Below are positions 29,738 through 32,798 of a DNA stretch of 47,429 nt, piece by piece. Position 1 is the first letter of the stretch. Each line of letters opens with the position of its first letter. The position numbers were made by a program, and so were the translations under genes. Under the pieces are notes generated by a model. It was not told where the DNA came from and made no database searches. It was given only the letters and a program-made list of their open reading frames with translations. This stretch comes from an uncultured Eubacteriales bacterium (GTDB lineage Bacteria > Bacillota > Clostridia > Christensenellales > Aristaeellaceae), in contig CACWXY010000024.1 of assembly GCA_902764915.1 (NCBI GenBank), forward strand, positions 1-47,429. Reading direction: 5' to 3'.

Positions 29738-29766
29738 TTGACAGCCTGTCACAAACTCCGTATGAT
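29738..29766 (+). promoter_or_regulatory. Promoter of the lysine riboswitch transcript
   Basis: TTGACA (29738-29743), 17-bp spacer, TATGAT (29761-29766). Predicted transcript start near 29773, 20 bases before the aptamer. Confidence 0.88.
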
Positions 29767-29792
29767 TTTCCGCGTCTGGATAAGACCGGACA

Positions 29793-29959
29793 GGAATAGA
29801 GGCGCAGCCGACAGGAGTACCGCCTGGGAGCCCCGGCCAGGGCTATGAGTGGGCGAAAAAGGGAAGGCTGCCGAAATGCGGGCAGGGCCGATGGACCGCG
29901 TTGGGCATGGGGAGAATATCTCCATGACTGTCATGGCAAAGCCATGGAGTGCTATTTCC
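29793..29959 (+). promoter_or_regulatory. Lysine riboswitch (L-box) aptamer
   Basis: The segment has the L-box core in order: AGAGGCGC (29798-29805), AGGAGTA, a purine-rich GAAAAAGGGAAGG stretch, GCCGAA after GGCTGC, and GGGCATGG. GCAGCC (29804-29809) pairs with the GGCTGC before CGAA to make P2. GGAATAG at the left edge pairs with CTATTTCC at the right edge to close P1. These match the conserved lysC leader elements of Bacillus and E. coli. Lysine binding should stabilise P1 and favour the downstream terminator, so the importer is made when lysine is short. Confidence 0.9.
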
Positions 29960-29977
29960 GAAAAGACGCTTGTGCTG

Positions 29978-30010
29978 ACGGAGTAGCCCCGGGCTGAACT
30001 CCGTTTTTTT
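29978..30010 (+). terminator. Riboswitch-controlled terminator
   Basis: ACGGAGT-AGCC pairs with GGCT-GA-ACTCCGT (two-base bulge), followed by seven T. It lies 18 nt after the aptamer and 31 nt before the binding-protein ATG: the expression platform of the lysine riboswitch. Confidence 0.9.
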
Positions 30011-30041
30011 GTTATTCTATCTGTATGAGGAGGCACACAAC

Positions 30042-30851
30042 ATGAAGCAACTGATTTCTCTTTTTCTCTGTCTTGCCGTGGCTTTGACAGCCGTTTCTGT
30101 CTGTGCGGAAGGTGTTCTGCGCGTGGGCATGGAATGCGGTTATGCGCCGTATAACTGGCACCAGCTTGCGGAGACGGAGTTTACCGCTCCGATCTCTGAT
30201 GGCAGTGGATTTGCAGACGGCTACGATGTGCAGATCGCGCGGCGCATTGCCGATGCGCTGGACATGGAGCTGTCCATTGTAAAGACTGAGTGGGACGGTC
30301 TGCCCATGAGTCTGATGAGCGGAAACATTGACCTGATTATTGCCGGCATGAGCCCGACCCAGGAACGCAGGATGACCATCGATTTTACCGACAACTATTA
30401 TCAGAGTGAACTGGTGGTTGTGGTACGCAAGGATGGAGCGTATGCGGAAGCGAAGGAACTGGCTGACCTGAACGGGGCGACCATTGTCGCACAGCTCAAC
30501 ACCTTCCACGATACGGTTGTCGAGCAGATCCCGGGTGTCCGGCACGGCATGCCCATGGAAACCTTCCCTGCCATGATTGTTGCCCTTCGCAGCGGCGCGA
30601 TTGACGGCTATATTGCCGAGCGTCCCGGAGCAGAGGCGGATGTCATGGCCAATCCGGAACTGACTTATATCCAGTTCGAGGAAGGCAAAGGGTTTGAGGC
30701 TTCTGAGGATGACACCGCCATTGCCGTGGGTCTGGTGTATGGAAGTCCTTACAAGGATAAGATCAATGAGGTGCTTGCGGGGATCAGTGAGGACGAACGT
30801 GTGCAGATCATGATGGACGCGACCGAACGTCAGCCCCTGGTGACCGAGTAA
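30042..30851 (+). CDS. Lysine ABC transporter substrate-binding protein (riboswitch-controlled)
   Basis: A 269-residue family 3 binding protein. The signal peptide (MKQLISLFLCLAVALTAVS) ends at VCAE, with cleavage after CA likely. GMECGYAPYNWHQ starts the first lobe, and SPTQERRMTIDFTDNYY has the ligand-contact Arg region. The assignment to lysine rests on the L-box directly upstream, not on residue reading; arginine or ornithine binding in addition is possible. The ATG at 30042 has GAGGAGG eight bases upstream; an earlier ATG at 30009 lies within the terminator T-run. First gene of the rightward importer. Confidence 0.92.
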   Translation: MKQLISLFLCLAVALTAVSVCAEGVLRVGMECGYAPYNWHQLAETEFTAPISDGSGFADGYDVQIARRIADALDMELSIVKTEWDGLPMSLMSGNIDLIIAGMSPTQERRMTIDFTDNYYQSELVVVVRKDGAYAEAKELADLNGATIVAQLNTFHDTVVEQIPGVRHGMPMETFPAMIVALRSGAIDGYIAERPGAEADVMANPELTYIQFEEGKGFEASEDDTAIAVGLVYGSPYKDKINEVLAGISEDERVQIMMDATERQPLVTE

Positions 30852-30866
30852 GATAAGGAACTGTGC

Positions 30867-30901
30867 GGGCAGGTCTCCCTCCGGTGGCTTGCCCGTCTTT
30901 T
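30867..30901 (+). terminator. Internal hairpin between binding protein and permease (rightward operon)
   Basis: GGGCAGG (30867-30873) pairs with CTTGCCC (30888-30894, one G-T), followed by GTCTTTT. It has the same place in the operon as the hairpin of the leftward importer and likely has the same role: more binding protein than permease. Confidence 0.65.
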
Positions 30902-30930
30902 CGTTGGGAAAGTGAGGGGAACACGTCGAT

Positions 30931-31719
30931 ATGCCGGCGAATATTCCAACCACCTTTTTTGCATGGGTCTCGTTTCTTCTGGACAAGTACGGAGAACTGT
31001 TCCTGCGCGGCACGGGTGTAACCATGCTGGTTGCGCTGACGGGCACGGTACTGGGCTTTCTCATTGGCCTTCTGGTGGCCATCGTACGTACGATACCGCT
31101 TCCCAGGGGAGTGTGGTACCGGAAGCTGCCCATGCGGATCGTTTTTTTCCTTCTCAATGTCTATATTGAGGTATTCCGGGGAACCCCCATGATTGTGCAG
31201 AGCATGGTCATCTACTATGGTGCCATGCAGATCGGGTTTCGCATGCCAGTGCTCGGTGCGGCGATTTTCATCGTTTCCATCAATACGGGTGCTTATATGG
31301 CGGAGATTATCCGCGGCGGCATTATCAGCGTGGATGTGGGACAGAAGGAAGCCTGTACGGCGATCGGCATGACGCACTGGCAGGCCATGACACATGTGAT
31401 TCTTCCCCAGGCAGTGCGCAATATCATGCCGTCCATCGGCAATGAGTTCGTGGTCAATATCAAGGACTCGTCCGTGCTGAACGTGATTTCCGTGGGTGAA
31501 CTCTTCTTCATGAGCAAGTCAGCGGCTGGCGCGTATCTGCGCTACTTTGAGGTATTCTTTATTACCGCCTGCATTTATCTGATCCTGACGTTCAGCGTGA
31601 CACGCCTTCTGCGGCTTCTTGAAAAGAAGATGGACGGCAGCCGCAATTATACCATTTACGGCTCGCAGTCGGACAGTCAGAGCAGTATCCGCGTACAAGA
31701 GACAGAGGAGGCGGAGTAA
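30931..31719 (+). CDS. Lysine/basic amino-acid ABC transporter permease
   Basis: A 262-residue HisMQ-type permease. FRGTPMIVQSMV marks the family. The EAA loop reads EACTAIGMTHWQ with ILPQAVRNIMPSIGNE after it. About five membrane helices are seen. Unlike its leftward counterpart it has a polar C-terminal tail of about 30 residues rich in Ser, Gln and Glu. It is the only permease gene in the operon, so a homodimer is expected. GAGGGG lies 11 bases before the ATG. The ATPase gene begins 2 nt after its stop. Confidence 0.94.
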   Translation: MPANIPTTFFAWVSFLLDKYGELFLRGTGVTMLVALTGTVLGFLIGLLVAIVRTIPLPRGVWYRKLPMRIVFFLLNVYIEVFRGTPMIVQSMVIYYGAMQIGFRMPVLGAAIFIVSINTGAYMAEIIRGGIISVDVGQKEACTAIGMTHWQAMTHVILPQAVRNIMPSIGNEFVVNIKDSSVLNVISVGELFFMSKSAAGAYLRYFEVFFITACIYLILTFSVTRLLRLLEKKMDGSRNYTIYGSQSDSQSSIRVQETEEAE

Positions 31720-31721
31720 GC

Positions 31722-32462
31722 ATGGAAAACATTCTGGAAATCCGTCATCTGGTGAAGCACTTCGGGGATCATGAGGTGCTGCGGGATATAAGCTTTGCAG
31801 TACAGAAGGGCGAAGTCATCTGCATTATTGGGTCCTCCGGTTCGGGAAAGAGTACACTGCTGCGGTGCATGAATTTTCTGGAACAGCCCACTGGGGGTGA
31901 GATCCTCTATCACGGAAAGAATGCGGAGACAGAGTGGAAGCGGACACTCTATCACAGCAAGGTGGGCATGGTATTTCAGTCCTTTAATCTGTTTGGAAAC
32001 AAAAACGTACTGGAAAACTGTGTACTGGGGCAGATGCAGGTGCTGAAGATCGAACGCAGGGAAGCGGAGGCACGGGCTGTTGCGTACCTGGAGAAAGTGG
32101 GCATGGGTGCCTACCGTCTTGCACGGCCCAGTCAGCTCTCCGGCGGACAGAAACAGCGCGTGGCGATTGCAAGGGCACTTTGCATGGAGCCGGAAGTGCT
32201 GCTTTTTGATGAGCCGACCAGTGCCCTGGATCCGGAAATGGTAGGAGAAGTGCTGGGGGTTATGCAGGACCTGGCAAGAGGCGGTATGACCATGCTGATT
32301 GTCACCCATGAAATGAGCTTTGCCAGGGATGTGGCCAGCCGTGTTCTTTTCATGGATGGTGGCGTGATCCTGGAAGACGCCAGTCCCTCCACGCTCTTTT
32401 CCCATCCCTCACAGCCGCGCACGCAGGAATTCCTGCGCCGTGTGCTGGCACGACAGCTGTAA
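31722..32462 (+). CDS. Lysine/basic amino-acid ABC transporter ATPase
   Basis: A 246-residue ATPase with Walker A GSSGSGKST, Q-loop FQSFNLF, signature LSGGQKQR, Walker B VLLFDEPTSALDP and H-loop IVTHEM. It is a clear paralogue of the ATPase at 27130-27885, but the part between Walker A and the signature has diverged. Last transporter gene of the L-box operon; a small membrane-protein gene follows 33 nt later. Confidence 0.95.
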   Translation: MENILEIRHLVKHFGDHEVLRDISFAVQKGEVICIIGSSGSGKSTLLRCMNFLEQPTGGEILYHGKNAETEWKRTLYHSKVGMVFQSFNLFGNKNVLENCVLGQMQVLKIERREAEARAVAYLEKVGMGAYRLARPSQLSGGQKQRVAIARALCMEPEVLLFDEPTSALDPEMVGEVLGVMQDLARGGMTMLIVTHEMSFARDVASRVLFMDGGVILEDASPSTLFSHPSQPRTQEFLRRVLARQL

Positions 32463-32495
32463 AGGTGCTAGGATGCAGAAAAGGGGGAAAGAAAG

Positions 32496-32798
32496 ATGTA
32501 TCGGCATTCCAAACTGTACAGTATTATCAGTTATATTACCTGGGTAGGCTGGGTGGCAGCACTGATTCTGCGGGATGAGGAGGATACTCTGGTTCGTCGA
32601 CATCTCAATCAGGCACTGGCGATAAACTGCATGGCATCGGTAGGGGCTTATATCACGCGCCGTATTGGAATTCTCAGCGTGTTTGGAGAGCTTCTGAATG
32701 CGGTCAGTTTTTTTCTGATGATCCTGGGGATCGTTCGGGCGGCGAAAGGCAGTGAGAAGCCCCTGCCAGTGATTGGAAACTTTACATTGATTCAGTGA
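32496..32798 (+). CDS. Small DUF4870/Tic20-like membrane protein
   Basis: 100 residues with about three membrane segments (roughly 8-24, 42-55, 60-82). The pattern SYITWVGWVAAL, VRRHLNQAL, and a C-terminal AAKGSEKPLPVIG is the hallmark of DUF4870-like proteins. Their function is unknown. AAGGGGG lies eight bases before the ATG. It sits between the ATPase gene and a strong terminator, so it is probably carried on the lysine-controlled message. Whether it helps transport is not known. Confidence 0.82.
   Translation: MYRHSKLYSIISYITWVGWVAALILRDEEDTLVRRHLNQALAINCMASVGAYITRRIGILSVFGELLNAVSFFLMILGIVRAAKGSEKPLPVIGNFTLIQ

Follow-up and report, generated by a model that had tools for sequence, protein, structure and literature searches.

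A predicted lysine riboswitch before an amino-acid ABC importer operon with a small trailing membrane-protein gene in an uncultured Eubacteriales bacterium

Introduction

The lysX-lysY type of riboswitch-controlled amino-acid ABC importer is associated with Rodionov (2003). The passages of PMC5584792 that bear on these genes place lysine riboswitches before lysX-lysY ABC importers (COG0834) scattered across the Firmicutes, Actinobacteria and Fusobacteria; the same passages credit an earlier, tentative lysX-lysY call and, while failing to confirm it for the three species originally named, report the arrangement from many others. A separate line of work concerns the DUF4870/HOTT family, which a passage of PMC11628618 describes as MamF-like and as belonging to the Tic20 superfamily.

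The locus studied here lies in a stretch of 47,429 nucleotides (the window) from an uncultured Eubacteriales bacterium of the GTDB family Aristaeellaceae (assembly GCA_902764915.1, contig CACWXY010000024.1). We suggest, at a probability of about 0.88, that lysine binding to a leader riboswitch stops transcription ahead of three importer genes, that the importer carries lysine, and that a small gene at the end of the operon is on the same transcript as a passenger.

Results

Layout of the transcription unit

On the + strand, a promoter match is followed by an RF00168 aptamer, a terminator-like hairpin with seven T's, three importer genes, a 100-aa open reading frame and a final hairpin. The sequence-only reading had listed a promoter, an L-box aptamer, a terminator with a T-run and the genes in this order; all were found where it had placed them, and Infernal matched the aptamer to the Rfam model over its full length. 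The features are as follows.

29738..29766, + strand: sigma-70-type promoter match, TTGACA-17-TATGAT (11 of 12 consensus bases; predicted only)
29789..29962, + strand: lysine riboswitch aptamer, RF00168 (104.6 bits against a gathering score of 30, E 6.1e-27, model positions 1-182 of 182)
29794..29799, + strand: 5' strand of the P1 helix (Rfam structure line; five pairs checked)
29952..29957, + strand: 3' strand of the P1 helix, shared with the predicted antiterminator (Rfam structure line)
29952..29986, + strand: predicted antiterminator, 29952-29960 pairing with 29979-29986 (duplex -12.4 kcal/mol, shuffle fraction 0.015)
29977-30005 with T-run 30004-30010 (seven T's), + strand: predicted intrinsic terminator of the leader (-15.5 kcal/mol, z -3.4, 0 of 200 shuffles as stable)
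30042..30851, + strand: substrate-binding protein, SBP_bac_3, lysX-like (PF00497, E 3.2e-21; start resembles a signal peptide by eye)
30865..30896, + strand: hairpin between the binding-protein and permease genes (-26.8 kcal/mol and z -2.4 for the spacer 30852-30915; 5 of 200 shuffles equally stable)
30931..31719, + strand: ABC permease (PF00528, E 2.6e-21)
31722..32462, + strand: ABC ATPase (PF00005, E 1.6e-37)
32496..32798, + strand: small predicted membrane protein, DUF4870/HOTT-like, 100 aa (open reading frame list; weak PF09685)
32800..32845, + strand: terminator-like hairpin closing the unit (-36.9 kcal/mol, z -11.2)

When the 151 nt 5' of the aptamer were shuffled 2000 times by mononucleotide, an equally good promoter site arose once. 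Upstream is a second amino-acid ABC importer (binding protein, permease and ATPase; 27130-29525, - strand), which is divergent and has its own promoter match, TTGACG-16-TATAAT; an Rfam search of that region found no family at its cut-off. On the other side, a convergent aminotransferase gene and then a gene for a LarA-type racemase homolog occupy 32845-35402 of the - strand, the best NCBIfam model for the latter being NF052525 (LarAH10; 448.7 bits against a cut-off of 540).

The genome contains one other RF00168 match (83.3 bits), which precedes a gene for semialdehyde dehydrogenase, a gene type of the lysine pathway. Nine RF00168 places were found in nine genomes of the genus: three ahead of importers like the window's (G000, G076 and G048), one ahead of semialdehyde dehydrogenase, and five (L175 and L177-L180) at which the next protein resembles semialdehyde dehydrogenase by eye. 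At one locus of the same genus (L174), the lysine riboswitch has a tetrahydrofolate riboswitch (RF01831, 78.3 bits, 4869-4963) some 4.2 kb away. A regular expression written for the aptamer core found only 11 of 31 covariance-model matches, and its absences were discounted; an nhmmer aptamer profile, which recovered 15 of 15 held-out loci, was used in its place.

Predicted switching of the leader

Segment 29979-29986 is part of the 5' arm of the predicted terminator and would compete with P1 for the P1 3' strand. In constrained folds of the leader, the antiterminator form came to -89.1 kcal/mol and the form with P1 and the terminator to -85.7 kcal/mol; the two are mutually exclusive, and the predicted difference of 3.4 kcal/mol favours the antiterminator when no ligand is bound. 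Ligand-free RNA is therefore predicted to read through, and RNA with a lysine-closed P1 to terminate. These energies serve only as a guide, because portions of the aptamer are themselves refolded both in the antiterminator form and in the unconstrained minimum (-90.6 kcal/mol for a slightly longer leader).

When lysine is scarce, the P1 3' strand would pair with 29979-29986, the terminator would be blocked and the operon would be transcribed. When lysine is bound, P1 would close, the terminator would form and transcription would end near 30010. Since the P1 3' strand, which the ligand stabilises within P1, would otherwise block the terminator, this arrangement has the logic of an OFF switch. 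A passage of PMC2258182 reports that some lysine riboswitches follow ON logic, and lysine might likewise turn this importer on; against the OFF logic predicted for this leader, such a switch is extremely unlikely.

The leader was compared with other aptamer loci, 31 in total, comprising the 30 best from the family RF00168 search (the window's included) and the second riboswitch of the genome. By the rule used, a T-run hairpin of -14 kcal/mol or better follows 21 of these, a weaker one follows two and none follows eight, the second riboswitch being among the loci with a weak terminator or none. Complementarity between the P1 3' strand and the terminator 5' arm was tested only in the 21 loci with the more stable hairpin. 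Its shuffle fraction was at most 0.05 at 14 of these, including the window's, and above 0.05 at seven.

Linkage of the riboswitch to the importer across the family

The linkage was counted in a sample of 150 family genomes. RF00168 occurs at 107 places in 91 of these, by a search run with the stricter filters of Infernal, in which weak matches are lost. The binding protein has 73 matches in the sample, 51 at an identity of at least 53% (its own included, and with one split gene, G144, counted twice) and 22 below. At 43 of the 51, RF00168 lies on the same strand, 70-186 nt upstream. Three of the other eight run into the end of a contig (G138, G071 and G144:C102), and four orthologous operons (L169, L171, L172 and L173) gave no RF00168 match even at E 1; for the eighth (G086), absence was judged from the stricter-filter family search alone. 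Weak matches to RF00480, RF00556 and RF00498 in the search of the operons lacking RF00168 were below cut-off and were taken as chance. The 22 more distant matches were counted apart, and RF00168 lies upstream of 10 of them. Moreover, binding protein, permease and ATPase stand in the same order at all 19 importer loci fetched, a hand-picked subset of the 73 matches. Thus, the link between riboswitch and importer is conserved in the family.

Among 19 relatives, 15 have a spacer between the binding-protein and permease genes that reaches a folding energy of -19 kcal/mol or better, although the sequences are unlike; these are raw energies for spacers of varying length, two long ones being folded over their first 200 nt. 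In other importers, intercistronic stem-loops favour the mRNA of the binding protein. By analogy, the hairpin at 30865-30896 might do the same here.

Substrate of the importer

Family models leave the three importer proteins generic: among the models listed (for the ATPase, 25 of 190), no NCBIfam equivalog scored above cut-off. The conserved linkage therefore makes lysine uptake the best reading of these genes, as the sequence-only reading had proposed; the RF00168 match and its recurrence at the 43 orthologous loci lend that proposal support. A metagenome protein 78% identical to the binding protein (P0070) already carries the name 'putative lysine transport system substrate-binding protein'; the nearest relatives are those whose binding proteins (P0054 and P0055) are 83-85% identical.

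The proteins nearest by sequence and fold include 4ymx, the Thermotoga ArgBP and the pneumococcal AbpA, among others. Near the top, the solved relatives with a ligand in their titles are binders of arginine or of arginine, lysine and histidine, at 23-28% identity (one ancestral protein also binds glutamine). The best NCBIfam model, TIGR01096, describes the lysine/arginine/ornithine (LAO)-binding subfamily and scored under its cut-off. Because such binders are among the nearest solved relatives, a broader uptake of basic amino acids (arginine, ornithine, histidine), with lysine repressing as one of several substrates, is a live if somewhat unlikely rival. Against it, an arginine importer would hardly be expected to retain a lysine sensor at so many orthologous loci. 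Lysine is thus strongly supported as the amino acid that regulates the importer and, by inference, as the one transported. The importer would carry lysine and possibly other basic amino acids too.

Identity of the small membrane protein

The trailing gene encodes a protein that scored 18.4 bits with PF09685 (E 0.0022), below the cut-off of 25, and no Pfam family matched it at E 0.001. In its alignment, 15 of 29 members, its own sequence included, match PF09685 at E 0.01, the best at 1.2e-5, and precomputed annotation from another Pfam version (PF09685.16) assigns the family to 48 of 52 listed proteins, again with its own. The label DUF4870-like, given earlier from the letters, is weak for this sequence taken by itself, which stays under the cut-off. 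A member of the family would also be expected to have a re-entrant-like helix, a charged loop and two further membrane helices. The structure model has a pLDDT of 89.4; its top fold matches are TOC-TIC chains, and Foldseek found no match to it at E 0.001.

Placement of the small gene

Only 33 nt without a stable hairpin separate the ATPase gene from the small gene, whose start is preceded by AGGGGG, and the final hairpin is shared with the operon. From the short gap and the shared hairpin, the small gene is probably co-transcribed with the importer. The same features could mean that, in the window's lineage, the small protein works together with the importer under lysine regulation, a reading on which several counts bear.

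The small gene does not follow the ATPase at any of 17 importer loci with at least 1.5 kb of sequence beyond it (tblastn, E 1e-5); 20 loci were fetched, of which one (L174) is without the importer and two (L161 and L167), having less than 300 nt beyond the gene, were set aside. Genes downstream of the ATPase were listed for 18 loci. Among the nine genomes of the genus, only the window's has the small gene, while a relative at 33% identity lies elsewhere in one of the rest. In the family sample, 11 of the 150 genomes, its own included, encode a relative of the small protein, and in all six others that also have an importer of at least 53% identity (G051, G060, G086, G108, G128 and G146) the two are on different contigs.

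Examination from the side of the small protein, at the best 80 of 137 relative loci (six with less than 1 kb upstream), found neither the importer's binding protein nor its permease nearby at any of the 80. ABC ATPase matches turned up at seven of these loci, but with no more than 27-35% identity, and one locus (L074) has an nhmmer riboswitch match, 3.2 kb downstream of the small gene. Clustering found no common neighbour, the largest cluster covering 8 of 77 loci upstream and 9 of 78 downstream. At seven loci, all labelled Lachnospiraceae (L071-L073, L075, L079, L081 and L082), the relative precedes a conserved gene of about 437 aa, and at six of them (not L081) it lies behind related same-strand genes of 467-1601 aa. 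The small gene also has a low third-position GC (54%, over only 100 codons) compared with the operon genes (63-69%) and with six other genes of the window (59-71%).

On the strength of the empty positions after the ATPase, the 80 loci without importer genes, the six genomes with separate contigs and the lower GC, a functional partnership appears improbable. Since the placement is seen in the window's genome only, among the genomes and loci examined, it says little about what the small protein does. The gene is probably an addition in the window's lineage, and most likely a (recent) passenger that plays no working role in lysine uptake. The sequence-only reading had put it under lysine control; probable co-transcription agrees with this, and the placement, unique to the window's genome among those examined, counts against giving it weight. 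Such control, deduced from position alone, is most likely incidental.

Discussion

These counts have two uses. They give a direct numerical basis for labelling a generic importer, throughout a bacterial family, as one that probably takes up lysine, and the same numbers warn against ascribing a role in lysine to the small trailing gene. More improbable still than the partnership considered above is that a DUF4870/HOTT protein, whose superfamily includes the chloroplast translocon subunit Tic20, was recruited in the window's lineage into the lysine-riboswitch operon to aid membrane assembly or activity of the importer. In comparison with the described DUF4870/HOTT family, the window's protein scores below the Pfam cut-off, and none of the results links it to organelles or protein import.

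The leader agrees closely with what is known. Like the lysine riboswitches of Rfam RF00168 (L-box), it has the full-length aptamer with a terminator-type expression platform, and its differences from the consensus are ordinary variation, a few consensus positions being missed in three hairpins. As in the lysX-lysY importers, so far as the relevant passages of PMC5584792 describe them, the genes of an amino-acid ABC importer directly follow a lysine riboswitch. The binding protein was recognised here through PF00497. What differs from the published arrangement is the small DUF4870-like gene that trails the ATPase, a position in which none of the relatives examined proved to have it. The inference of lysine uptake is not new, because those passages already make it for lysX-lysY importers. 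Judged from its sequence, the pairing of riboswitch and importer is an ordinary, well-supported case of the lysX-lysY type, which is already known.
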